NCBI RefSeq assembly: GCF_022201045.2
Contig: NC_068561.1
Span: forward strand, 21,764,501-21,828,500
Length of the DNA: 64,000 bases
Reading direction: 5' to 3'
DNA from: Citrus sinensis
Taxonomy: Eukaryota > Streptophyta > Magnoliopsida > Sapindales > Rutaceae
Shown: piece after piece, positions 12,676 to 63,900 of the stretch
How positions within the stretch are numbered: the first letter of the stretch is position 1
How the letters are laid out: each line of letters begins with the position of its first letter
The notes under the pieces: model-generated
Told to the model about the DNA's origin: nothing
What the model saw: the letters and a program-made list of their open reading frames with translations, nothing else
The model's database searches: none
Position numbers and translations under genes: made by a program

Positions 12676-12684
12676 AACAGTCTG
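12676..12684. repeat. Left 9-bp target site duplication of the MULE
   Basis: aacagtctg abuts the left end of the element and is repeated exactly at 20506–20514. A 9-bp duplication is the hallmark of Mutator-superfamily insertion. Confidence 0.93.
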
Positions 12685-12803
12685 GGGAAATTTACAAAAC
12701 AAGCCAAAAAAAGAAGGCATTTTTCAACTTTAACCCCTCAAATTTTTTTCTTTCAACATTAGCCAAATCACCACATTTTGGACGAAATTACCCTCCTCAT
12801 TCT
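12685..12803 (+). repeat. Left terminal inverted repeat of the MULE
   Basis: About 119 bp beginning gggaaatttac pair with the reverse complement of 20388–20505. Long identical blocks include catttttcaactttaaccc, with scattered mismatches and small gaps between them. Similarity fades after attaccctcctcatt. Confidence 0.9.
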
Positions 12804-13007
12804 CACGTTTCCCTCAAGCAAATTCCTTCCCCTCTCACCAAAATCTCATCACCGGAAGTTCTATAGATTGTCGGCGGCAGCGTACATCGGCAGCGGAGAA
12901 AGTTGTTGGCACTTGAAAGAAGCTAAATCACGTTGAAAATCTTCGGAGATCTCCAAAATCAAAGAAAAAAATTGAAAACCCTAGGTGAGTTGTTATTGCC
13001 ATTTTTC

Positions 13008-13135
13008 TTGTTGTTGTTGTTGCTGTTGTTGTTTGGGATGTTGTTGTTGTTTGGGTTGTTGTTGTTGTTTGGGATGTTGTTGTTGTTTGGGATGTTGTTG
13101 TTGTTTGGGATGTTGTTGTTGTTGTTGGTGGTGTT
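13008..13135 (+). repeat. TTG-rich minisatellite, ~18-bp units
   Basis: Tandem copies of ttgttgttgtttgggatg with small length variation fill this stretch. Read on the minus strand they encode Gln/His/Pro runs, which inflates open frames there. It lies just inside a likely splice donor (ctag|gtgagt at 12985) that would place it in the leader intron of the protease gene. Confidence 0.85.
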
Positions 13136-13199
13136 TTAATGGCGGTGGTGGGTGAGATGCATGTGGGAAAGGGAAGAGAAGAGAAAGGGGGGAAGCCAA

Positions 13200-14412
13200 C
13201 TCGCGCTGCGTCGCACGCGAGATGCGCGCGGCGTGCGCACCTCGCGCGCGCGAGATGGGCGTGCAGCGCGCATCTCGCGTGCGACAGGCGCATCTCGCGC
13301 GCGCGAGGTGCGAACGCCGCGCGCGAGATGCGCATGTCGCACGCGAGATGCGCGCGGCATGCGCACCTCGCGCGCGCGAGATGGGCGTGCCGCGCGCATC
13401 TCGCGTGCGACATGCCCATCTCGCGCGCGCGAGGTGCGCGTGTCGCGCCCATCTTGCGTGCGACAGGCGCATGTCGCGCGCGCGAGGTGCGAACGCCGCG
13501 CGCGAGATGCACATGTCGCACGCAAGATGGGCGCGACACGCGCACCTCGCGCGCGCGAGATGGGCATGTCGCACGCGAGATGCGCGCGGCACGCCCATCT
13601 CGCGCGCGCGAGGTGCGCATGCCGAGCGCATCTCGCGTGCGACATGCGCATCTCGCGCGCGGCGTTCGCACCTCGCGCGCGCGACATGCGCCTGTCGCAC
13701 GCAAGATGGGCGCGACACGCGCACCTCGCGCGCGCGAGGTGCGCATGCCGCGCGCATCTCATGTGCGACAGGCGCTGCGTCGCACGCGAGATGCGCACGT
13801 TGCGCCCCTCTCGCGCGCGAGGGCGCGGCCTCGCGCGAGCGAGGTGCCCGAGGCCCGCGCGAGGGACGCCCAGCGCCCGCGAGTTGCGTGCCCGCAAGCA
13901 GCGCGCGCGCTTGGCTTCCCTCGCGCGAGCCTGTCGCACCAAGAGGCAGCACCTCTTGGTGCGACGAGCACCACCTGTCGCACCAAGAGGTGCTGCCTCT
14001 TGGTGCGACAGGCTCGCGCGAGGGAAGCCAAGCGCGCGAGCTGCTTGCCTGCACGCAACTCGCGCGCGCTTCGCTTCCCTCGCGCGAGCCTTGCGCAACT
14101 CGCTCGCGCGCGGCCGCGCCCTCGCGCGCGAGATGGGCGCAACGTGCGCATCTCGCGTGCGACAGGCGCTGCGTCGCACGCGAGATGCGCGCGGCGTGCG
14201 CACCTCGCGCGCGAGCGAGTTGCGCTAGGCTCGCGCGAGGGAAGCCAAGCGCGCGCGAGTTGCGTGCAGGCAAGCAGCTCACGCGCTTGGCTTCCCTCGC
14301 GCGAGCCTGTCGCACCAAGAGGCAGCACCTCTTGGTGCGACAGGTGGTGCCCGTCGCACCAAGAGGCAGCACCTCTTGGTGCGACAGGTGGTGCCCGTCG
14401 CACCAAGAGGCA
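13200..14412. repeat. GC-rich palindromic repeat array in the left arm of the MULE
   Basis: About 1.2 kb is built from alternating short palindromes. Units include ctcgcgcgcgcgag (self-complementary), gcgtgcgacaggcgcatctc and its complement, gatgcgcgcggc(a/g)tgcgcacc, and toward the right cctgtcgcaccaagaggcag paired with its inverse. From about 13139 to 14225 I find no TA dinucleotide. That removes TAA and TAG and leaves overlapping open frames of up to 459 codons on both strands, all reading as Arg/Ala-rich repeats. These frames are a composition artefact. The block contrasts sharply with the AT-rich surroundings. Confidence 0.93.
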
Positions 14413-14491
14413 GTGCGCAGTGCTGCCTTAATTTTTTTTTCTTTTGTTCATAATTTTTTAATGTGTGATACTTTTAACTTGTACCAGATAA

Positions 14492-16545
14492 ATGGGCAAA
14501 TCAAAATTAGCATTGCATAACCCACCCGGACCGATTAAAGAACCGGGAATGATGAAGATACCTTATGTTGATCACTTCCCTGGGCGTATCACGAGTATGT
14601 GCAAATTAGATGTCGTTGTTAATGCCATCCGGGAAAAATTAACAAGGCAACAGTTGAAGCTATTCAAAGACGATATATTTGGGCATTTCCTACAGTGCCG
14701 GAGCTATCCGTTCAGTGGCGTGATTGTGCACAATATATTGCTTCGGCAAGTGTCACATGGCGATGGAAATGACAAAGATGAGTTATGGTTTCAAGTTGGC
14801 GACCATTTGATACGGCTATCGATTGGAGAGTGGTGCCTAGTAACGGGACTTTGCTATGGCGAAAAAGTATTCCTGACGAAGCATAAAACAAATCATAGGT
14901 TACTTAATAAGTACTTTGGAGGCAGGATTCGCGATATAAATCTTGGCCAGTTCGAGGAAATATTTATGAACTTACGCTTCAAGACTATGAATGACACCGA
15001 TGCGCTAAAAATTGCCATGTTTTACTTTGCTGATAGAGTGCTACACGGAAGAAAGGATCATTGTCAAATCAATTTCAATTTACTTAATGAGGTAGATGAC
15101 ATAAATCATTTTCGAAGTATTCCGTGGGGTCGTTTGTCATGGGAAACAATTTATAAAAGCATTGATAATGTATTGAACGGCAAAGCCAAAAAATTTAAGA
15201 AGGCAAGCGCAGAAAATCCATTGCATAGAATTGAGAAATACAACTTTTACGGCTTTACGTCGGCAGTGCATGTGAGTGAAGAAGTTTTTTTTATAACTTA
15301 GTTTTGTTATAATAAATATTTAATGACACGTTTTTTTACTTCATATCTTTCCTTGTTGAAGGCATGGATTTTTGAAGCGATCGAAGGACTACCATTAGAG
15401 TGGGTAGAGAAAATTAAGAGGAAGGGTGCTCGGATCGTGCGATGGAAGCCTGTGGCTTCTTCAAATATTAACTTCGGCGAAGTGTATTCATACCTGAACG
15501 AGCGTCTTGTAAGTCATTTATATGTATGTCTGTATATAAGTATTACATAATATATGGTTATACTAATTGGAAATTTGGTAATCTTTACGACAGGATGACA
15601 CCATTTTCCAAACCCTGAAACCGGATGCAAAGGAGAGAGCCACAAATTATTGGAAGAGTGTCGAGGATTACGTGTTTAATGGTCAGTACATTACAATACA
15701 CAATAATATTTCTGCTGGCATGGATATTGATATAAATTAACTTGGTATAATCCCTTCACAGCATATTCACACGTATTACCGCTTGATCAGCGAGAAGCAA
15801 CGGCGGTTTCCAAATGCACTACCACAACGCGTCACGCATACAGATACATACTTTTGGGCATGTTTTTAAATTTTATAATCATTAATTATAATTTCGATGT
15901 TTTAAATATCTCGAAATGTTATTAATTTTCTACTCATCGTGTAATAGGTGTTCCTAAAGCAATTATGGAACAATGGTAGTTGTGATGTCAATTCATTACA
16001 ATATGGCAACAACTTGAGCAGCTATATGGATGGGCGGGAAGATCTCATGTCCAAACCGTTTACGGATGTCGATATGGTAAGAATTGTCACTCAATCTTAT
16101 GGTAATTGTGTATAAAATATACTAATTTACCAATTTATTTATGTAGATATTCATCCCTGTGAATTTGGGCGGCGATCATTGGGTACTAGCTCGAGCGGAC
16201 CTTCGCGCGAGGAGGATGCGGATTTACGACTCGTTGGTTACCTTTCGCGAGGACAAAACATATTTGCGTAAATTCAAACCTCTTCAGGTCGTCTTCCCTC
16301 AATGGCTTCAAGATGTTGGATTCTACAACCTTCGATCTGAGCTGCAGAGTGCCGACCCTTGGAAAGTAAGAATCGTTAAGGATGTGCCCCAACAATCACC
16401 TGGAAGTGGTGATTGCGGTGTATTTATGTTGATGTTTACAATGTATTTGATGTTCGGGCTAAAACTTGATTTTGATAGTAGCCACGGGCATTACTTCAGG
16501 AAGAAAATTGCTGTAGATATATTCACGGGCGATATTGCCTTGTAA
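14492..16545 (+). CDS. MULE-borne Ulp1-like cysteine protease (DUF1985 + C48 peptidase), multi-exon
   Basis: Ulp1 proteases remove SUMO from proteins. MULE-borne relatives have unproven substrates. The start MGKSKLALHN follows a likely leader-intron acceptor (ttgtaccag at 14487). Proposed exons are 14492–15271, 15362–15508, 15594–15681, an uncertain exon near 15762–15861, 15948–16076 and 16147–16545. Exon 1 carries a DUF1985-like region (VSHGDGNDKDELWFQVGDHL, LSIGEWCLVTGLCYG). The last exon carries the peptidase triad: His in GGDHWVLARADL, Asp in MRIYDSLVTF, Cys in SGDCGVFMLMF, with an upstream glutamine in VPQQSPG. Anomaly: the most protein-like reading of the fourth exon (YYRLISEKQRRFPNALPQ) does not join its neighbours in frame with GT–AG splicing. 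An alternative acceptor at about 15790 does restore frame but loses that segment. This could mean a 1-base lesion, a noncanonical site, or my misreading. The gene is convergent with the transposase. Confidence 0.85.
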
Positions 16546-16761
16546 GTCGTTGTATTGTATTAAGACTTGATGTATGGATGTAGATTGTTTTTTTAATAGA
16601 TATAAACTTTTGATATATTCATATATTTAGCTATAAGTAATTATTGATCAACTTTAGTACTCATTATGCAAATGAACATAACATAATATACCTCATTACA
16701 TATAATTGTAATATAAATTATAATAAGAGTTCATAATTCATAATTAGTTACAACGACACAG
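16546..16761. other. Short intergenic region between the convergent MULE genes
   Basis: About 216 bp of AT-rich DNA lies between the two stop codons and must hold both 3′ ends. No other feature is seen. Confidence 0.5.
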
Positions 16762-19383
16762 TCAGTTTGGATTTGACACAATGGGATTTTTACATCTCTT
16801 GCGGTTATGACCTGGTTGGTTGCATCGACCACATCTCACAGTTCTTCGGTTAACATCCTCACCGATAGAAGGAATTCTTAACTCTGGACGACGACCAGGT
16901 GGTGGTGCTTCGATCGGTGGGTTAACTCTGATTTCCTGGATTTCTTCTGGAATGTCCCAATCTGTCATGTCCCCAACCGGTTCTACTGGTTCTGCATATG
17001 CCATGACCAATGAATCTTTAGAGTAATAATCAGAGCAAAGACTTATGTAATCCACACGGACGATCAGACAAGCAGCAATTGCATGCGCACAAACAAGCTG
17101 ATCGAGTTGGAATACTCTACAGGAGCAAGTTCTTTCATGAATGTCAACTATCCCTTCCTTCATACCACCACCCAAAACATGAAATCGATGCTGAGACACT
17201 GGCCGAACGGTCATTCTTTCGGCCAAAATTCTCCTTTCGCCGACTATCTCATCTGCCCACGTCGTTAGACGAGTGCTCATCGATTCAGCGACAATTTTCC
17301 TATCATAAAACCATTGCTGTAATGTTTTTCTAAAGTGATCAACAAGATGAGTAATAGGAAATTTTCGCGGTTCCCTCATTAAAGAATTCACGCTTTCTGC
17401 AATGTTGGTGGTAAGTATGCTGTATCTCCTACCTTCAAATTCGGACCTTGCCCAATTACACGTGCCCACATTATTCTCTAAATAATCAGCCGCGGCCGAG
17501 TGGAGCATCCACAACCCTTCAAGTTGTCTTTTAAATTCTTCGTGTCCATATGCCTTTGCTGCATTAATAAAAGCTGGCTCGAATTGATCCCAAATAGCTT
17601 TGGACATCCTGAATTTAGACTTAATGTTGCCTTTGACATGGTAAAAACAAACTCCATGACTAGCAGTGTGAAATGCTTTTAAAACGGCTCGCTTGATGGC
17701 AGTGCATCGATCAGAGATAAATACTAACTCTGGCCTATCGCCAATCACTCCGTGTAACTTCGTCATAAACCATTCCCAAGCATCATTGTTTTCTGAATCC
17801 ATGACCCCAATAGCTAACGGATACAGTTGATTATTACCATCCAAACATGTTGCTACAAACATGCTTCCACGATATAGCCCCTTCAAATGAGTGCCATCTA
17901 CAGCAATCACAGGCCTTATGTACTGTGTGAAGCCCTTAATGGAAGATCCAAGCGCAACAAAGTAGTATAAGAAATTATCATCTCCATCCCGCTGGAGGTG
18001 TGTCACTGTGCCCTCATTCGCTTTGGTCAAAACGTGAGAGTATTTGGGAAGTAAGTTGTATGACTCTGCAGGGTTCCCTCGTACTATTTCAAGACCGACT
18101 TCTTTAGCCCGATATGCTTGCTGATATGTTAACTGGACCTCGTATTCTTGCTGCATGTCTGTTCTAATGTCATTCGGCGTGTATATCCGTTTATCCTGAA
18201 TAAATTTATCCGCAATAAGATGGCCAACAACCCGACTCCTAACTTGGCGGAGGCCACTAGGCAAAACCTCATTAGAGCACGTATGAACATTGTCAACTCT
18301 TCTCACTACCCAAGGAACATTATGCTCATCCGAACCTCTTGTTGCGCGAAGACGCCAATTACATGATTCCGAAGAACAATGAGCCTCAAAGCGTGTCGTT
18401 GTGGACCGTGCAATCTTGAAATCAAATTTTTCCCGCAAGGCCACTTTGCGCAATTCCAGTATTAACTCATTCTTCTCAACGAACAACTTTCCCACACCAA
18501 TGTCGGCAGAATTACAGCTTCTAACTAAGTCTGGAGCAACCAAGTTTGAAGGCAAAACTGGAGCAAGACTCACCAGAGGATCAACTGTTGTCCTCCTCCT
18601 CGAACGGGCCATCGGAGGAATAGGTCGATTCTCTCTATTGTTAACAGGAATATCATACTGATGCTCATCCTCATTATTGATAGGAATATCGGAATGACCA
18701 GTGTCCCTATCATCAACTTCAGTATTGGAGTTCATGCCTTGCACATTATCAGCTTCTGTGTTGTTGGTGTTATAACCAGGATCATCATAACTGCGGAACT
18801 CATTATTTTGAAATGGAGAGTAATGTTGCCCTAACAATGTCCCTAATGGTAACACATTATCTTCAACATCCGCTATCGTAATGCCATTATCATCAATAGT
18901 GTCATTGTTTTCGTTGACTGGTGAGTAATGTTGTTGGAACGACATTTGTTGTGGTAACACCTCTTCCTCAATATCAGGGACAGACTCGTTTGCTCTAAAC
19001 GAACTTTCACTTTCCACAAGTGGCTCAGGATTTTCGGCCGGAACTCGAGGATGTGTGGTGACAAATATAGGGATGCATCCATAATTGACCACATCAGAGG
19101 CCATGTGCAGCACAACATTAACCATTTCATCATTAAATATATCCATAGGTAGTGAACATGCACGATACATTGTGTTACTAGATCTCAAAGTTGTCTTCAT
19201 CGACAAACTATATTCAATAGGATTTATCTGTAAAACTTCATACACCCTTGCCATAAATTGCTCAAACGTACAATCTTTCCGAACTAAAAATGCTGTATTC
19301 TTCGCATTCACGTACTCCGTACGGCCATCTGCTAATGTCTCCCACCAACCGTCATAACATAATTGAAGTACAACGGAATCCAT
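16762..19383 (-). CDS. MuDR-family transposase (MULE transposase)
   Basis: It catalyses cut-and-paste transposition of the surrounding element in the nucleus. I chose the start at 19383 (MDSVVLQLCYDGWWETL, 873 residues) because the upstream bases read tttttttttag|gtttaATG, a likely leader-intron acceptor. The open frame itself extends nine residues further. Order of parts: a PB1-like N-terminal region (1–115); an acidic, Asn-rich linker (120–265); a MuDR DNA-binding zinc module around 300–375 (FEAHCSSESCNW … HTCS); the MULE DDE domain from about 495 with Asp 496 in VIAVDGTHLKG, Asp 558 in VFISDR, the CFYHVKGN motif, and a candidate Glu 663 in TTNIAESVNSLM; a SWIM zinc finger (CSC … CAH, about 753–767); and a C-terminal CCHC knuckle (CGRCNQPGHNRKRC, 851–864). 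There is no internal stop or frameshift. Confidence 0.96.
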   Translation of the reverse strand: MDSVVLQLCYDGWWETLADGRTEYVNAKNTAFLVRKDCTFEQFMARVYEVLQINPIEYSLSMKTTLRSSNTMYRACSLPMDIFNDEMVNVVLHMASDVVNYGCIPIFVTTHPRVPAENPEPLVESESSFRANESVPDIEEEVLPQQMSFQQHYSPVNENNDTIDDNGITIADVEDNVLPLGTLLGQHYSPFQNNEFRSYDDPGYNTNNTEADNVQGMNSNTEVDDRDTGHSDIPINNEDEHQYDIPVNNRENRPIPPMARSRRRTTVDPLVSLAPVLPSNLVAPDLVRSCNSADIGVGKLFVEKNELILELRKVALREKFDFKIARSTTTRFEAHCSSESCNWRLRATRGSDEHNVPWVVRRVDNVHTCSNEVLPSGLRQVRSRVVGHLIADKFIQDKRIYTPNDIRTDMQQEYEVQLTYQQAYRAKEVGLEIVRGNPAESYNLLPKYSHVLTKANEGTVTHLQRDGDDNFLYYFVALGSSIKGFTQYIRPVIAVDGTHLKGLYRGSMFVATCLDGNNQLYPLAIGVMDSENNDAWEWFMTKLHGVIGDRPELVFISDRCTAIKRAVLKAFHTASHGVCFYHVKGNIKSKFRMSKAIWDQFEPAFINAAKAYGHEEFKRQLEGLWMLHSAAADYLENNVGTCNWARSEFEGRRYSILTTNIAESVNSLMREPRKFPITHLVDHFRKTLQQWFYDRKIVAESMSTRLTTWADEIVGERRILAERMTVRPVSQHRFHVLGGGMKEGIVDIHERTCSCRVFQLDQLVCAHAIAACLIVRVDYISLCSDYYSKDSLVMAYAEPVEPVGDMTDWDIPEEIQEIRVNPPIEAPPPGRRPELRIPSIGEDVNRRTVRCGRCNQPGHNRKRCKNPIVSNPN

Positions 19384-19599
19384 TAAACCTAAAAAAAAAG
19401 GAGAGAGCAAACGAGATAAGATTTCACGCTACAAAACCTAGTAAAAATGAATATGCATTACATTTATGTGGATGATATGAAGTATACAATTTTTGATTTA
19501 CTTCGTCTCATCGTAAGCTTCGAAATGATATATTATACGCCTAAAACGGACACATGTAGCCGAAGTTATTACTTTCGGAAAATAACTTAAATTTAGTGA

Positions 19600-20000
19600 G
19601 ACAGGCAGTGGGACAGGTGCCTGTCTCACATAAAACCAGCAAATTTATGTGAGACAGGCGCCTGTCCCACTTGCCTGTCTCACATAAAACCAGTGGTAAC
19701 AAGTGAGACAGGCGCCTCTCCCACTTGCCTGTCTCACATAAAACCAGTGGTAACAAGTGAGACAGGCGCCTGTCTCACTTGCCTGTCTCACATAAAACCA
19801 GTGGTAACAAGTGAGACAGGCGCCTGTCTCACTTGCCTGTCTCACATAAAACCAGTGGTAACAAGTGAGACAGGCGCCTGTCTCACACGCCTATCCCACT
19901 TGCCTGTCGCACATATTTTGGTGAGACAGGCAAGTGAGACAGGTGCCTGTCTCACATAAAACCAGTAGATTTATGTGAGACAGGTGCCTGTCTCACTTGT
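19600..20000. repeat. 54-bp tandem palindromic array in the right arm of the MULE
   Basis: The marker cacataaaaccag begins at 19627, 19681, 19735, 19789 and 19843, an exact 54-bp period, with a further copy at 19953. Each full unit holds a perfect 22-bp palindrome centred on gagacaggcgcctgtctc, plus an extra cctgtctcac half-site. It lies upstream of the transposase start, between a likely leader-intron donor (minus-strand aag|gttagt near 20204) and the acceptor at about 19389. Confidence 0.95.
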
Positions 20001-20387
20001 TCTGGGCTTCTGTTTCACTCGATTTTTCAGGAGTTTCAATGATTGATTTTCATTTCTCAACTCAAACTAACTACTTTAACAAGTCACATTGTTTTGTTAA
20101 TGAAAAATAACAACATTTGCAATAAAAACTCACATCAATTTCGAACTCAAATGATAAAATCAATAGATTAAAAGTTTAGGTTATGGTAAGAGTATAAACT
20201 AACCTTAAGAAGCTTTCCAATTGATAATTATATCTTCAATTATGTAATACTTGTTTGATGAAATTTGCTAATTTATTGAGAGTAATGGAGTTTGTTGAGT
20301 GATGAAATTTGTTAAGTTGAAAAGGAAAAAATGGTGGAAGTGCTGGAATTAATAAGGGAAAGTGGCATGCCTTTGTAAATTTGATGA

Positions 20388-20505
20388 AAATGATGAGGGT
20401 AATGTAGTCCAAAAATAGGGTGTTTGGCTAGTTATGATAGAAAAAAGTTTGAAGGGTTAAAGTTGAAAAATGACTAATTTTTTTGGCTATTTTTGTAAAT
20501 TTCCC
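20388..20505 (-). repeat. Right terminal inverted repeat of the MULE
   Basis: About 118 bp form the inverted partner of 12685–12803 and end ttttgtaaatttccc. It shares the gggttaaagttgaaaaatg block and the gggtaat…tcc block with the left end. Confidence 0.9.
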
Positions 20506-20514
20506 AACAGTCTG
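20506..20514. repeat. Right 9-bp target site duplication of the MULE
   Basis: aacagtctg is identical to 12676–12684. Confidence 0.93.
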
Positions 20515-54471: not shown

Positions 54472-56124
54472 TCACATGATTCGTTTCTTCGGTATAACTC
54501 TCAAAGGTACGAGCTTCCTTACTGCTATACCAAACCTCTCATTCATGTCTAAGCTCTCTGGAGTGGCATCCTGGCCTAACTCCCAGTCGAAATGGTGAAG
54601 CAAAGAGGCAAGACCAAGGTGAAGTAGCCGGTCAGCTAACGAGATTCCTACGCAAATTCTTCTCCCAGAACCGAATGGAATCAACTCAAAGTGCTGTCCC
54701 TTGAAGTCAACATTTGAACCTAGAAACCTCTCAGGCTTGAAAGACAAAGGATTTTCCCAACAGTCTGGATCTCTTCCTATTGTCCATACATTCACAAAAA
54801 CTTGAGTATCTTTAGGTATTTGGTATCCCATGAATTCAGTGTCTTTCATTGCATTTCTTGGAAGCAGCAATGGGCCTGGAGGGTGTAACCTCAGTGTTTC
54901 CTTCAACACGGCCTTGAAATATGGCAGTTCAACAATGTCTTTCTCTTCAACCTTTCTGTTTCGTCCAACGACACGGTCAAGCTCGTCCTTAGTCTTTCTC
55001 ATAGCCTCAGGGTTGCGCAGTAGCTCAGCCACAGCCCATTCCATGGTACTGCTTGTAGTTTCCGATCCAGCCAAGAACATTTCCTGCACATTACATTTAA
55101 TGGAGTTAATATTATAATTAGACAAGATGTTGTCTAATCTCTTGTTTATAAAAAAGAACTAATTGCTTGCTTATTATGAATGTAGAAGCTTAATCACCGT
55201 TACGATTATGTTGATATTCTGATCTGAGAGTCTATCAGGCCCTTCTTTTCCATCCCCTTCATACTGTATCAATCCATCAAGGAAGTCTTTTTTCTCATCA
55301 TTCAGTAACTTCTGCTCGTCGAGCCTTTCCTTCACATACCCAGATATTATCTGGAGAACGCATCCCATGTCCTTCATCATGTTTCTCCTGATACCTTGAG
55401 GATCCAGGCTTCTCAAGAATGGGAAATAGTCAGACATATTTGGCTTTCCAACCCATTCCATGCACTTGACCATGGCAGCAAAGAATTCCAGCTCTTGTTT
55501 GGACTGCAAGTTCAGCAATTCCCTCGACAGAGTAAGGTTGCCAATAAGGCTGAATGCCATGAGAAATAGGTAGTGAGACAAATCTACTTGTCCCGATTCT
55601 CCTCGAGCCTGCGCTTCTGCTACATCATTCTCAATGCATTGTATCGTCTTATCAATACACTTTCTACGGATAGGAGCTGTCTCGTTGATTCTCCTGTTGA
55701 CCGAGAGCTCCGATGCGCAGAGACGTCGAAGGATGCGCCAGTACACGCCATACCTGCCGAAGGCAAGTGATCCTTGGTAATAGTTACGGGCTATCAGTGC
55801 ATCTGGAACCTTGCGGTCGCAAAATATATGGTCTTGATTCTTGAACATTTCATTCGCAGCCTTAGCTGATTGTATCACTACGGTGTTTACTGAACCTAGC
55901 TTTAACCAAAGTACGGGACCATACTTTGCTCTGAGCTTGTAAAGGCTTTGGTGTGGCATGTTTCCGAGATCGAAAAAGTTGCCGAAGATTGGCCAGGCCG
56001 GAGGCCCCGGAGGCCGCAGTTTACAGTTTCTCGACTCTTTCTCCTTTAGAATATTTAACAGAAGGATCAAAGCTGCAAACAGAAAAAGGGTCGACCACAC
56101 AAGCACACTCAACGTGTTTGCCAT
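54472..56124 (-). CDS. Cytochrome P450, CYP76-like (copy A)
   Basis: This is an ER-anchored heme monooxygenase. CYP76 members oxidise monoterpenols and other specialised metabolites, and the substrate here is unknown. Two exons (55198–56124 and 54472–55083, phase 0 intron) give 512 residues. The N-terminus has a hydrophobic anchor (LVWSTLFLFAALILLLNIL) and the hinge LRPPGPPAWPIFGN. The C helix reads WRILRRLCASEL. The oxygen-binding I-helix motif AGSETTSS opens exon 2. The K-helix KETLRLHPPGP (ExxR), FKPERF and the heme loop FGSGRRICVG with the cysteine ligand are all present, followed by a tail ending VIPKKRIM. A minus-strand TATA box lies near 56190–56202. The heme loop and LLHHFDWEL match CYP76A-type proteins best. 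It shares its intron position with the copy at 58971, so the two are tandem duplicates. Confidence 0.93.
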
Positions 56125-58970
56125 TTCTCACTTCGCGTGTTACTAGTTTAGTGCTTGTGATTTTGCTCCGACTTTTAATGAACCAACCGCACGCATATAT
56201 ATAATTAATTAAGCTGACAGTTATTATTATTTTTTTTAAAAAAAAAATCCATTAAGCTACTGTGAAAAAAGATAAGATATTTGTTCTTTGGCTCTGTTTA
56301 GAGCCCCATTTATCGAACAAAGAAAAAAAGATAAGATATTTGTGATTTGTGAACATATTTGTTCACAACCACATAATTTTTTGGCCAATTTCAGCTACTT
56401 TGTTTCGCATCTGATAATGAAATTTTGATGGGGAATTGACTCGTGGGAGCCCAAAAATTCGAACCGTCGGCAGTCCTTCACGTCATTGTGTTAACATCTT
56501 TGTCCTTGCCTAATTATATGATTCTCACAAAGCATAAGTTACGAGTAAGGGAAGTAATATGAGTCAAGATTCAATTAGAGGCAAATAAAATAGTTTTGGA
56601 TTTAAAAAAAAAAATTGATTAGTTTAATAAATAGATGAAATTCGATTTGATTCGCTAAATAAACAAATTAGATTTAGATTTGAGATCATTGATTCATTTA
56701 TTTATTTAATAAACAGCTTATAAACTAATCGAACATGAATCTATTCATTTATTATCCATTTGATAAAATTACTTATTTATCATTAAATTTTTATGCATAA
56801 ATTTAAAAGTTTGGTGGATAGTTTTGTAATTATAAACTATAATTTTACATAAACAAATTAAATGAATTCGACGATTATTCATTTAATAATTGAATTGAAT
56901 TCGAAGATAAAGATTACGATTCGCTTATTAAACAAAATGAAATTGAATCCATTGAATTTGGCCAATCATTTACGATTCAATTCATTTATTCGTTTTACCA
57001 CCCTTAGTCATGAGACCATATGGGTATGTAGTTTCTGCTATATGAAAATATCAATGCGACTCAGCAGAAAAATAAATAATAAAAATGTTAAAATAGAAAT
57101 AAGGAATTTTATTATTGTTTTCTTTTTCGGAAACCAAATAATGAATTATTAGAACATATCCAGTTACAGAGTCTTCGCATTCCCAAAGATTTGGACATGA
57201 CATACATACTCGTGCTGTAATCCGCAACATTAATGGTTGGGTCGTGTTCAATCAGTGGCCCACACGGCACTGAAAGAGGTGACATTTTTCAATAACGCAA
57301 TATTGTTAAGGAAGTGAAAATTTCCTCTTAGGCTTATTGTTAAGAAGTCAGAACAGTAATGATCCTGCATGTTACTATATTATGGACTGATACGATTTTT
57401 TTATTTTATTTTATTGAGATTATACAAAACTTTGTTAAGAACAACTATGAAAATTATTTATCTTTTTAAATTTTATAAACACTTAATTTCCTAGAACTTA
57501 ATTACTAAGCCTAAAGGAAAATTTCTAAGAGCTGCTCCGACTCAATCCTGATGTAATTATAGCATTTTAATTACTATTTTGTTCAAGACTATCACGTGGC
57601 ACTATCTAATTAGTCCACTTATAATTCCATTCATGCATGAGTCGCACTATCTAACAACATATGACTTCATGCAACTGTGTTAGGCTATTTGTTTTATTAA
57701 TTTGGATGCGGTGTGCAATAACAGAGACCACTACTCTCCTCCCATAATCAAGTGGGCTGGGAGAAGTAGATACATTCCTCAAGTATTAGTGAAGTAGATA
57801 TATTTTAATATACAATATAAATAAGTGTTGTATTATTGTTATTAATTATCTTTAATTAGTAAATTCCTAATTAAAGCTAACATGCAGTCATTTCTTTTGC
57901 TGGAGAATATGCTGTTGTCGGCATATAATTAATAACCGATGCAACTAGCTCAAAAGGGGGTTCAGTCATTTCCGTTAAAGGAAAAAAAAAAAAAAAGCTG
58001 GATGTTGTTGGTACTGTGATATTTTAATATTTTTAAGGGGTGTTTTAGGAAAAAAAAATATTTTAATTATGGAATTGCATAGAAGCTGTTAATAGCACCA
58101 CTCTTTTGAAAAATTTCTTTATCAAACCGGCAAAGTTAGTAAAATGCTTAGCAAAGCAAATACCTCTTAGGTTCTTGCAGGATGTTCATGGAATATATAT
58201 ATTCTCTTCAAAACAAACGAAAAAGTAGAGATATTATTAGCAGTAATATACTACTAGATTATCAATTTGAGAATTTTCTAATGCAAGGTTTAATGATCTT
58301 GTGTCAGGGCGACTCTAAAAGGAACGAGCTAGTCAGATAACAAGATTGATATTGCACAGATATGATGGATAAGTATGGGATATTTTTAGAAAAATGTTAA
58401 AGAGGCCAAAAAAAAAAAAAAAACGACAAAATGCAGGTAAAATAAATCATAAAGTCATGTGGCGTTATAATATTAATTGATTGTTTTCTTTTCTTTTCTT
58501 TTCTCTAACACTACACAGTGCTATAATTCATTTTGTCAGCGTTTTCTCATATTTTTTTGTTGAATGCTTATATGTTTAATACTCCATGAATTTCGAAAAT
58601 GCATAAAAGAATAATATAAATAAATTGATTTTTTGGTGATTCATTTTATATGTTTTATGTTATTGATTTAAGGAATATTAAGAAGTAATAAAACTCAAAA
58701 AATAGTTTATTTACATTAAAAAAAAACTAAAGAGTTTATTCCACAAAAATCAATCAAATAAAAAATTCGCTCTCACAAATACTACACAGACACGTATTAT
58801 TTATACTAGCTGGTAGCTACAATCTATTATTGTATTACTATAGTTATTAAACAAGAAATACCACCAGTAGAAGATTCATTCCCAAGCTAGAACAATGAAG
58901 TAATTAAACTCAATGATCTTGGATTTGATTAGCAGTTCTCGCGCTTCTTGCGCCCCTTTACTTTGAGTTT
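56125..58970. other. Spacer between the two P450 genes, with an AT-rich repeat-like block
   Basis: Promoter of copy A at 56125–56210. At about 56575–57010 there is a block rich in aataaacaaatt / attcatttatt motifs resembling the interior of the element at 53098–53626. Its ends (attagaggcaaataaaat … ttaccacccttagt) are not clearly inverted. The rest, to 58970, is AT-rich with A runs near 57983–57996 and 58411–58424. No gene is seen. Confidence 0.45.
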
Positions 58971-60902
58971 TCATTTACACCTTTTAGGTACTGCAATTAA
59001 TGGCTCGGCCTTTCGCACAGTAATACCCATCCTATCATTCATATCAATTTTCTCCTTACAATCAAGTTCCCAGTCAAATTGGTGAAGCAATGAGCCCAAT
59101 ATGAGATGTAACATTCTGTGAGCCAATGGTACACCAGCACACATTCTTCTCCCAGCTCCGAATGGAATCAACTCATAATTTTGCCCCTTGTAATCAACTG
59201 TTGAGCCTAAAAATCTCTCGGGCTTAAAAGACCAAGGCTCATCCCATACTTCAGGATCTCTTCCAATTGCCCATGCGTTTACCAAAACTTGGGTATCTTT
59301 GGGTATGTGATAGCCCTGGAAGTTGGTGTCCTCCATTGCTCGCCGCGGAACCAAGAGTGGAATCGGAGGATGTAATCGGAGAGTTTCTTTAATCACAGCT
59401 TTTAAGTATGGAAGATTGTCAATATCATCCTCTTCAAATGTTCTGTCCGCTCCAACTGCTTGACCAAGTTCAGCTTTGGCCTTGTTTAGTGACTCGGGGT
59501 TGCTTAGGAGCTCGGTCAGTGCCCATTCGATTGTGCTACTTGTTGTTTCTGAACCGGCCAAAAATATTTCCTAGCGAACACAATCGCAATTAGCCTTAAA
59601 CATTGAATATATCGAACGTACTTGCCCAAAGTTATCTGAATATATCACAATCTTACTCTGTATATCCATTGAAATATTGCATGGCTACTTTGCCTTTTAT
59701 ATATATATATATAAGATAAAGAAGATTTAAAATACATGGTCAGGCATAATGTAAAAAATTTGATGAATTCAAACAACTTAACATCGATCTATTCAGCTAG
59801 ATTATCGCCAGCAGAGTTTTGGGGCGAATAAGTTGGAGTCTCTTTGCAAAAGGAATCCAGAAAATATTCTTTTACCCCAATGTTAGTGGCACACACATGC
59901 ATGGCTTATCAATATATACATATAGAAATTTCGGATGTATAATAACAAAAATGGACTAAAATGATGTCAATGGACATATGTATATATATTTGCACTTACC
60001 AGAATAAAGATGTTGAGATCCTTCTCGGAAACTTTTGCCGGCTCATCCTTGCCATTACCTTCAAAATCAAGCATCACATCCAAGAAATCTTTCCTCTTTT
60101 CATCACTAGTACCCGTAACATTCTTATCTTTTTGCTCCAATCTTTCCTTAACAAACTTAGACGCAATCTCCAATGCTTTACCAACATCCCTCTCCATTTT
60201 TCTCCTCAATCCCTGAGGATCCAGCCTCCGCAGAATCGGGAAAAAATCCGCCAAATTTGCATGCCCCGACCATTCCATTAGCCCCATCATTGCTTGGAAA
60301 AACTCTGCACCATCATTTGACTCCCGATCCAATAAATCACGTGACAGCATAAGGTTTCCTAACAAGTTAAACGTAGACAGGAACACCAAACGTGCCACGT
60401 GAACCCCACTCGCCTCTTGCTCGATCCATAACAACATGTCGTTTACGCATTTCCTACGGACAGATGCGGTCTCATTTATACGCTTGGTTACCAGCATTTC
60501 CACAGTGACAAGGCGTCTTAGCACGCGCCAGAACGCACCGTATGGGGCCAGTGCTAGTGAGCTCTTATCGTAACCGTGGACGCGCATGGTTTCGGTGACT
60601 TTGCGTTCGGCGAATGTGGAGTCATGGTTCTTGAAAAAGTCTGTAGCTGCTTTGGCGGAGAGAATCGCCATGGTGTTTATGGCCCCGAATTTCAGCCATA
60701 TAACGTCGCCATACTTCTGTCTGAGCTCGGTTAGGGTTCGATGCGGCACTGTGCCCAGATCGAACATGTTGCCAATTATTGGCCATCCCGGTGGCCCCGG
60801 GGGGTGCTGCTTGGGCCGGCTCGATTTTATTCGGAGGAGTAGTAGTACTGCTCCTGATGCTGAGAAGATGATAATGCAAACCAGAAGGCCAAGCCAATCC
60901 AT
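58971..60902 (-). CDS. Cytochrome P450, CYP76-like (copy B)
   Basis: This is a paralogue of copy A in the same orientation. Exons 60000–60902 and 58971–59570 give 500 residues. I chose MDWLGLLVCIIIFSASGAVL at 60902 as the start because a TATA-like run at 60962–60977 would put transcription start near 60935. A methionine at 60947 is in frame and would add 15 residues before the membrane anchor. Motifs: HPPGPPGWPIIGNMFDLG (hinge), WRVLRRLVTVEM (C helix), AGSETTSS (I helix), KETLRLHPP (ExxR), FKPERF, and the heme loop FGAGRRMCAG. The protein ends LIAVPKRCK. All invariant P450 residues are present and there is no lesion. The substrate cannot be read from sequence. The intron between the exons is about 430 bp and contains a TA-dinucleotide run. 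Confidence 0.93.
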
Positions 60903-63900
60903 TTGATCAGAATTCTCTCTTAATCTTAGCTTTTCGTGAATTGCCATAGAACGACCGATGTTATGTATATATATATGTACAAGCACGTAATTTGTTCGGT
61001 AGTATGGGCAGAATATCACAACTTAGCAAATTAAGATGCTCCGTCTCAATTAAATAAATTTGATAAGCAATGCATGGATGAGGTCTTGTGAGTTTGCCAC
61101 TGCAGCAGCTGTAGAAAATAATATATATATATATATATATATATACGTGGCTATCATATATGAGTTTTGATTAATTGATCGTCTCTGAAATCTAAGTCAG
61201 CAACAATCGATATACAAGGCGACAATTTTACCGCATACTCTTTTGTTATTATGATTATTAAGCTGATCAATTAATCAAAACCTATAAATTAAAATTTTGA
61301 AGGTCAAGGATAAGGACTCATATTTTAACTTAACGAATATGATTTCAAGTGCACTTAGTCCTTTAGAAAAAGTTTAATAAGCATCGTTGGTGTCACCATT
61401 ATGATTAGAGATACTCTTCAAATTAAGAAGCAAACGAAAAGAATCTGACGCTGATTTTTCTCTATGGTTTGCGAATCTGCTGCCGAATGCAATAGCAAGC
61501 AATATATAACTGAGTGTGTGTGTGTGTGTATATAAAATGATTTTGAAGTTTACTAAATATATCGAAATGCATAATATGATACTAATACACACGCTTCACT
61601 TTTTCTCACGCCGAGTCGAGCAATTACGCAACAAGCATTCAATCTACATCGAAAGGATACTAGAAAGCTAGCTTTGAAATTGATTTTTGATGCTCTGTGA
61701 CCGTTAGATTACTTCCCTGCTCCATGCAAATGCTTTGAAAGAGATATGAATACGAGCAAATTAATGAGAAAAATACGTGCAGAAGAGATATATATGCACA
61801 TGATATATAATGGAGTTAGACCTAAGCATATTTGGAACAAATTCAGCAGTGATGGAACTTTAAGTGCCGCTCAATGCTATTGACAAGTTCAACAAGAAAT
61901 ATTATCTTCCACTTCCACCAAGTTGAAGTCCCATTTGAAAAATTGGCTTTCAAAGAAGGGGAGAAAGATATTTTCACATACATAAGAGATTTGAGTCCTC
62001 AACTTTAAGAATGAAATGAAAAAGAACTTATGATTACAATTTGAAGTCTACTGAGACTTTAAATGCATACATTTTTAAATACATCGTAGAAGTCTATTGA
62101 GGCTATCTTAAAAAATTACTCCTACTAATAATATTAGAGAAAATTCTACTTATTTTCATTTTTTTTTTCTTTTGGAAAGGAAAAGAGACTCCCATGTTAC
62201 TACTTAGTTGAAATGACGCCTTAGTTGAAATGACGCCTTCAACATTCTTTAAGCTACCAGCCCACAAGCCCAATGGCAAGAAAATTAATCTGTAAAAGCA
62301 AAAGAAAATGGAGTTGGACTATTCGCACTATTCGCACCCTATGATCTCCTCATAAAACCCCATTTTTAGTTATATTTATTTTATTTTTGAAAATGCCCAT
62401 TTTTTAGATACATTTTTCTAAATTCTCAATTTTCATTTGATTTGTTTTATTGTTAAAACTCAAAGTATTATTGTGCTATTTTTTTTAATTATTTTCAATT
62501 TTATTATTATTCTACACACAAATTAAAAAGTTATATGAGTGATAAGTTTTTTAGTGTTAATCATTGGCTGAAATAACATATATTTCAAATTATAATTTCA
62601 AAGCAATTTTAAGTATAAAAATATTTAATCAATAAGAAATTAAAAGAGAACAATAGATTATTCTAAATTCGTACAATTTATTTTAGCTAGATAGGAAGGA
62701 ATATATAGATTTTTTTTAAAAAAATGATTGATTATGAATTAAGTAATTTGCTGGAAAAAAATCTATATGTGTTTAATTTTTAATTGTCCTTAATTATAAT
62801 TTTATTTAAAGTGGGGTTTTGTAAAAATAATGTAGGCGTGCCAATAGCTCTACTCAAGAAAATGGCAATAAGGAGACACATATTTCACCTTGAGAATGTG
62901 GGCTCAAAGCCCACGTTTGAGGGGATATATCACGATTCACGACTTAAGAATCCTATCAACAGCAGCGTGTTGCGGAGAACATTATTTTGATTTTTGTATG
63001 GTATGTAATGCGGTGCTGTTGACACTCTTTTATTATTCTTATGGATTTTTATTTTTAGTTTTGAAATATGTAATTGAATGACAGGGTGCTTGTGTTCCTA
63101 ACACCAATATCTATTTTCAAAATAAAGTAAAAATTAAAAAAAAATTATAATGCAATGATTAAAATTTATATAAATTTATCAGTTTTATATTAAATTAGTT
63201 GTTTTTCTTTTATTTATAAGTTTTAAATTTTATTTTCAAAATTTATATTTTATTTTACAATTATTATTGATTTACTAATTTTTGTGTTATATTTGTAAGT
63301 TTTTGCTTTGTTGACTAGTGATACATTAACTTATCAATTTATATTAATTTACTTATTTTATTTTTTATTTATAAGTTTCATATTTAATTTTCAAAATTTA
63401 CATTTTATTTTACAATTAATATTGATTTACAAGTTTTACGTTAAGTTGAAGTGTCTCATTTTTCATTTACATATTTATATTGAATTAATGTCACATGAGT
63501 AACACTTATTTTAAAATTTATCTCATAAGTGACATTTCATCAAGTTTGATTAACAATGATAAAATTAAAAATAATTTTTTTTATAAATTATTAAAAAATA
63601 TTTTCACTTTTTTCCTCTTTTTATTTTTTTTTTCCGGGTGATTTGTCTTCTCCACTTCGCCTTGGTTCGAGAATACTAGTAGCTATGAGCTATCTATTGG
63701 CACCCCTCTAAACTTCTGAGCATTTTCTCTTCTCTAATTTGTCACGGTGCCACAGCAGCGGCTTCAGCATCTTTGTCGCTGCAATCTAGAGTGACGCTAC
63801 CCTGGATCATTGGAGTTACTTGTGCACAATCAGTTAACTAATTTTATGGTTGGATTTTTTTTATTATCAATTTGTTTTTCATTCTTAAATGAGATTTGAT

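Follow-up and report, generated by a model that had tools for sequence, protein, structure and literature searches.

Both arms of a TIR-MULE in Citrus sinensis carry arrays of one 10-bp core arranged as inverted pairs, and these arrays are probably the amplified binding sites of the element's own VANC-type protein, in which a DUF1985 part is fused to an Ulp1/C48 protease domain. On the best reading of the sequence the arrays would be targets of this VANC-type protein rather than of the transposase, and the element is most likely a VANC-type self-targeting system carried in a TIR-MULE. The initial annotation had taken the core for a functional site, for example one bound by the transposase; a functional site is likely, but the transposase is the less likely reader, since the ends of the element lack the core and a VANC21 homologue is co-encoded.

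Anatomy of the element and its gene leaders

Positions 12685-20505 of the window (the whole 64-kb stretch of DNA that was analysed) form a complete TIR-MULE of 7,821 bp, flanked by a perfect 9-bp TSD, AACAGTCTG, at 12676-12684 on the left and 20506-20514 on the right. The TIRs (12685-12805 on the plus strand and 20385-20505 on the minus strand) are 84% identical over 121 bp, and the MULE transposase, long TIRs and 9-bp TSD together place the element among the TIR-MULEs. Across eight complete elements that were read, the TSD was perfect in five and had 1-3 mismatches in the other three. Two genes were recognised (ORFs of at least 120 aa, with domain scans of three ORFs), and they are convergent; VANDALs proper have a third gene, vanB, and DUF287 in their VANC protein. 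On the minus strand lies the MURA transposase (16762-19383, start codon by inspection), with MULE, DBD_Tnp_Mut and SWIM domains; on the plus strand, the second gene has a first coding exon for DUF1985 (14492-15268, exon end by inspection), homologous to VANC21, and a last coding exon for a Peptidase_C48 (Ulp1) domain (16147-16545, by domain scan). DUF287 was not reported in the two scanned exon pieces of this DUF1985-C48 gene. An Ulp1-carrying MULE with one core in both arms, as initially annotated, is thus borne out by the domain scan and the core counts; the element is longer than the annotated interval of 13200-20000.

Each array sits between a candidate 5' and a candidate 3' splice site, just ahead of the start codon of the following gene, and both are predicted from these signals to be within leader introns of the two genes. 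The predicted intron of the DUF1985-C48 leader (12985-14487, plus strand, splice sites by inspection) contains 11 exact cores and that of the MURA leader (19389-20203, minus strand) contains 22, so that all 33 cores of the window are accounted for. The start motif was not found in 4 of 30 loci. In 25 focal copies (copies of the window element's own family), the right intron had 20 distinct lengths of 587-859 bp with 8-23 cores, and array length therefore changes between copies. In several copies the transposase frame is open and its product shares 99-100% identity with that of the window, and because of these near-identical copies the focal family seems to have moved recently.

The association with gene starts was also seen more widely on contigs C1-C4, which held 94 of the GTGCGACAGGCGC sites among 100 places listed of 232. 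At least 44 of these 94 lay upstream of a DUF1985 start that was listed, at distances of 99-1,327 bp (mean 0.12 and maximum 2 under random placement) and at least 5 lay upstream of a listed MURA start, with 45 upstream of neither gene among the DUF1985 and MURA starts listed. One cluster with no listed gene (C2:22833290, L047) was found, when read, to adjoin a conserved DUF1985 exon start.

The core, its conservation and its pairing

The exact core, GTGNGACAGG, occurs 33 times in the window counting both strands, with 11 copies in the left array (13200-14430), 22 in the right array (19590-20010) and none in the rest of the 64 kb. Shuffling each array 2,000 times with dinucleotides preserved gave a mean of 0.008 (maximum 1) for the left and 0.021 (maximum 2) for the right, and core frequency is therefore well above that expected from composition. 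The left form, GTGCGACAGGCGC, was found at 13279, 13458, 13763 and 14157, close to the initially annotated 13276, 13456, 13764 and 14156, and the right form at 19649, 19703, 19757, 19811 and 19865. As had been annotated, the forms differ by one base, which is core position 4, C in the left and A in the right. A right array with a form of its own holds for most of its cores (19 A) but not for all (2 G and 1 C), while the 11 left cores are all of the C form. The very different composition of the two arrays was likewise reproduced, with a GC content of 0.729 in the left and 0.499 in the right and a CpG observed/expected ratio of 1.50 and 0.27. The right array has a 54-bp period, and the left is also built of long and nearly perfect inverted repeats, the 273-nt arms of which are 95% complementary. 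The longest word common to both arrays on either strand is 13 bp and includes the core; the arms as extended inverted repeats of each other were ruled out, there being no 14-bp word in common. Over the whole genome searched (299.7 Mb in 11 contigs, nine of them 25-52 Mb), the GTGNGACAGG word occurs 3,403 times, compared to 569 for the reversed word. A search for four core 10-mers in print gave no title on plant transposons among the 20 listed of 301 matching papers.

Related elements of the genome have the 10-bp core in common and differ in their spacers, which agrees with the initial prediction that the core would be kept while spacers vary. All 25 focal right arrays read (L007-L031, from 26 transposase matches, L032 stopping short of its array) have 8-23 cores, although cores are related by duplication and descent and their counts are not independent. 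Among 20 left leaders of 521 bp each, picked by DUF1985 homology and not by motif on contigs C5-C9, where the motif places were unseen, the exact core was present in 14 and missing in 6, and the core within one mismatch was present in 20, compared to 2 for the reversed word within one mismatch; two of these leaders (L062 and L063) have a single near-core each. When nine arrays from different subfamilies and arms were compared, the longest word common to all was the 10-mer CCTGTCGCAC; this is partly by construction, because five of the nine were fetched as motif-bearing. Focal and sister transposases are 58-61% identical at fourfold sites, i.e. about 40% diverged.

Substitutions in the core were also informative. 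The 20 leaders hold 76 single-mismatch sites, of which 33 are G10>C and 24 are A8>G, with a CpG transition (G5>A) at just one. Methylated transposon DNA usually suffers CpG decay, so the near absence of such transitions suggests that the cores are protected, selected or homogenised, an argument limited to the left arm because the right array is CpG-poor. Position 4 of the 405 cores in the 25 focal right arrays is A in 307, G in 76, C in 21 and T in 1. The right arrays of sister elements had the C form only (L033-L036, the 4 read of 25 sister transposase matches), and for this reason the A form of the focal right array, a core without CpG, looks derived.

Ten focal elements were readable in both arms (that of the window, L016, L030, L037, L038 with L027, and L039-L043). 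L038 and L027 were treated as a single element that an insertion has split, given that the C48 exon adjoins L027 and the DUF1985 exon is within L038; L016 stops before its left end and has at least 3 left cores; and L044 (one TIR, no core) was left out, its genes being beyond the stretch read. The initial annotation had named copies lacking the core in either arm as evidence against its proposal. One of the ten is such a copy (L043, which is bounded by TIRs, has no left core and has 2 mismatches in its TSD), while the other nine hold cores in both arms. Two of these nine, L041 and L042, match neither gene and have nevertheless kept their cores on both sides.

The cores are arranged as facing pairs of the form CCTGTCNCAC-n-GTGNGACAGG, with 527 exact pairs at n = 4-24 compared to 0 for the reversed pattern. 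By spacer, 332 pairs were at 8-10 bp, 1 at 11-17 bp and 212 at 18-21 bp, classes whose sum exceeds 527 since the same left half-site may enter two of them, and some pairs at 18-21 bp span another core. The preferred spacer classes differ by about one helical turn. When 4 of the 50 pairs listed of the 527 were left out for spanning another core, the remaining 46 had n = 8 (22 pairs), 9 (16 pairs), 19 (7 pairs) or 21 (1 pair); as pairs are related by descent, these spacer counts should not be taken as independent trials. A shorter half-site, applied to 18 sister leaders, gave a spacer of 8 in 11, of 9 in 3 and of 10 in 6, with off-phase spacers of 11 and 16 bp in 1 of the 18 each; no facing pair was found with this half-site in the two family-A left leaders. 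Sister elements mostly use 8-10 bp spacers. In the window, facing cores are 19 bp apart in the left array and in the right array (6 pairs, with 1 further pair at 8 bp), and the spacer sequences of the two arrays are unrelated. A geometry common to both arms is as expected if one protein reads both, and these data suggest that the geometry of the site, besides its sequence, is under constraint.

The DUF1985-C48 protein and other possible readers of the core

A 7-sequence profile of the DUF1985 part matched VANC21 (PDB 9lnj/9lnk; E 2.9e-7) as its sole PDB match at E up to 10, aligning profile positions 36-229 to residues 47-242. The DUF1985 sequence of the window alone matched VANC21 at 4.3e-5, with one chance-level match at 1.4, and DUF1985 was found in all seven members scanned. 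An AlphaFold2 model of this part (7 sequences) had a mean pLDDT of 35.3. The C48 exon matched SENP1 and ULP1 (E 4.5e-7), and its H, D, Q and C positions fall in register with theirs. Among 303 candidate places in the genome, 150 were scored and have this exon, many of them at 60-70% identity, which indicates that the C48 domain is retained during subfamily divergence. VANC21 is described as binding a 9-bp motif, which has been amplified into tandem repeats within introns and ahead of the transposase gene, and as bringing methylation loss (excerpts of PMC5735166 and PMC10398659), and an amplified short motif in non-coding regions, the mark of a VANC system, is likewise present in the element and its relatives.

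The binding-site reading is supported by the homology to VANC21, the location of the window's 33 cores in predicted leader introns, the conserved core, the spacing rule and the cores kept in the gene-less L041 and L042. Set against it are L043 without left cores, the exact core missing from 6 of 20 leaders, the off-phase spacers, the CpG-poor right array, the 45 of 94 GTGCGACAGGCGC sites not upstream of either gene among the starts listed, the motifs of VANC21 which, in the excerpts available, run in one direction where the cores here are inverted pairs, and a strong hairpin folding that could make the arrays small-RNA sources. The transposase itself is an improbable reader, whether its subterminal sites were amplified separately on each side and join the ends or MURA itself lifts silencing. 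MURA does have a DNA-binding domain, gene-less derivatives keep both arrays as sites required in cis would be kept, and maize MURA is reported, in the part of PMC10398659 available, to induce TIR hypomethylation. However, neither end of the element has the core in its outer 150 bp, where the best match has 3 mismatches; the arrays are in gene leaders, with the DUF1985 gene the nearest at 44 of the 94 listed sites; the co-encoded protein is a VANC21 homologue; and L043 is bounded by TIRs without left cores, though with its two TSD mismatches. As both genes are together, now or formerly, in every element read, the roles of MURA and DUF1985-C48 are inseparable here.

Arrays that work as RNA hairpins or small-RNA sources, or that are neutral palindromes extended by slippage, with no protein reading their sequence, are a decidedly improbable account. 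It draws on the folding of the right array (z -22.5 against 100 shuffles) and of the left (-1,252 kcal/mol, without shuffle control), on the 273-nt inverted arms at 95%, on the fast change of array length and on tandem repeats as possible small-RNA sources (an excerpt of PMC10398659). Folding needs complementarity and not one fixed 10-mer, whereas here the core is kept in both arms and between subfamilies about 40% diverged at fourfold sites while spacers differ, is retained even in leaders with few cores, and is paired with 11-17 bp spacers nearly absent. Cores captured from the host as transcription factor sites that drive both genes, such as those of an auxin response factor, are very improbable. 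The site of that factor is TGTCTC, which the A form includes, and the arrays are located in gene leaders; but left and sister arrays most often have TGTCGC, A8>G at 24 of the 76 single-mismatch sites of the unselected leaders breaks TGTC, and positions 1, 3 and 4, dispensable for such a factor, are unchanged (position 2 being changed five times). It is because TGTC is often broken while these positions are kept that this account is put low.

If the arrays are operators of the VANC-type protein, the working unit would be the inverted pair of 10-bp half-sites, which a dimer would read from one face of the helix at n of about 8-10, or one turn more at 18-21. With one array per leader of two convergent genes, a single protein could serve both, and would keep both genes, together with gene-less array-bearing copies, free of host silencing and perhaps mobile. 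We regard as speculative, and unlikely, an extension in which DUF1985-C48 is a DNA-targeted SUMO protease: its dimers on helically phased leader palindromes would strip SUMO from silencing factors, with Ulp1 as the anti-silencing effector, and the C-to-A switch, in removing the core CpG, would make the transposase-side array insensitive to CG methylation, so that the host could not close the site by methylating it. An excerpt of PMC13317346 describes what the Ulp1 domain does in such transposons as not known.

Relation to described elements

The initial statement that no described MULE has such a layout was too strong, as amplified VANC motifs are present in VANDAL elements, both within introns and ahead of the transposase gene (excerpts of PMC5735166). 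VANDAL21 (Hiun) of Arabidopsis is a close likeness: it is a MULE, its VANC21 has a DUF1985 which the DUF1985 part here matches, its short motif is amplified in tandem repeats in those same places, its array size differs among near-identical copies, and its single-base motif types differ by subgroup (excerpts of PMC5735166 and PMC10398659). VANDALs are, however, described as having degenerate TIRs, unlike the 121-bp TIRs here, and the available descriptions of VANDAL21 have one-direction arrays and motifs replaced between subfamilies, where here there are inverted pairs and a core that is kept. The C48 domain here is a further difference from VANDAL21. In maize MuDR, two convergent genes lie between TIRs and the TSD is 9 bp, as in the element here; here, however, the second gene is DUF1985-C48, and it is the gene leaders, not the TIR, that hold the amplified sites. 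KAONASHI (KI/KIU) MULEs, with VANC genes that have Ulp1, share an Ulp1 gene in reverse to mudrA, and a review says that VANDALs carrying Ulp1 likewise target motifs of their own kind. Unlike this element with its TIRs, KI-MULEs are described as non-TIR, and the excerpts available do not mention paired palindromic leader arrays (PMC13317346, PMC2528002). CitMule of clementine is also a Citrus MULE with a 9-bp TSD, but it is related to Jittery, has a FAR1 domain and its TIRs are degenerate, and the term Ulp1 is absent from its main text as available (PMC4334395).

Apparently new are a TIR-MULE whose two gene leaders both hold palindromic arrays, as a pair, a core that has persisted through about 40% divergence at fourfold sites, and the CpG-removing switch in one arm; part of this may be in Sasaki et al. 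2022 (EMBO J). That study of eudicot Mu-like anti-silencing is said to have found that VANC specificity depends on the sequence, density and helical periodicity of the motif, and that DUF1985, DUF287 and Ulp1 are gained and lost among VANC proteins.

The family supplies a defined candidate operator of 28 bp or 39 bp, and its near-identical copies whose transposase frames are open, its gene-less copies bearing the operator and its one-base variant in one arm would make binding, anti-silencing and the role of the protease separable by test. This suggests that VANC-like control is not confined to VANDALs with degenerate TIRs.

Repeats and base composition of the left leader

The left array of the focal MULE was found to contain two near-perfect inverted repeats, one at 13210-13769 with 273-nt arms (95% complementary) and the other at 13779-14163 with 187-nt arms (93%). 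These repeats have a GC content of about 73% and a CpG o/e of 1.50, values that are unusual for a transposon of an AT-rich genome; across nine left-arm stretches of the window element's own family, CpG o/e ranged from 0.87 to 1.58. Another repeat of the left leader, a TTG-rich tandem repeat with 18- and 36-bp periods (13008-13135), lies just 3' of the candidate 5' splice site. Elsewhere in the window, ORFs on the minus strand at 54472-61022, judged by eye from the ORF list, are putative pieces of two cytochrome P450 genes.

Short derivatives of the element

Two short derivatives in the same genome (G000) were observed to keep both arrays. The locus L016 (C6:26.13 Mb) has lost most of the DUF1985-C48 gene and retains the whole transposase, while L030 (C8:26.51 Mb), which has a perfect TSD, retains most of the transposase and no recognisable part of the DUF1985-C48 gene.

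Switched and variant cores

Cores of the A, G or T form (named for the base at core position 4) were also observed, clustered or paired, at G000 C1:7305345-7305763 and C2:12260377-12260415, places without family assignment, and possibly represent additional subfamilies with a switched core. In one sister family (L033-L035, L050 and L051), the variant GTGCGACGGG was present in both arms, with 3-4 copies in the right arm, alongside GTGCGACAGG, and 2 and 5 copies in the left arm, as if the arms of this family change jointly.
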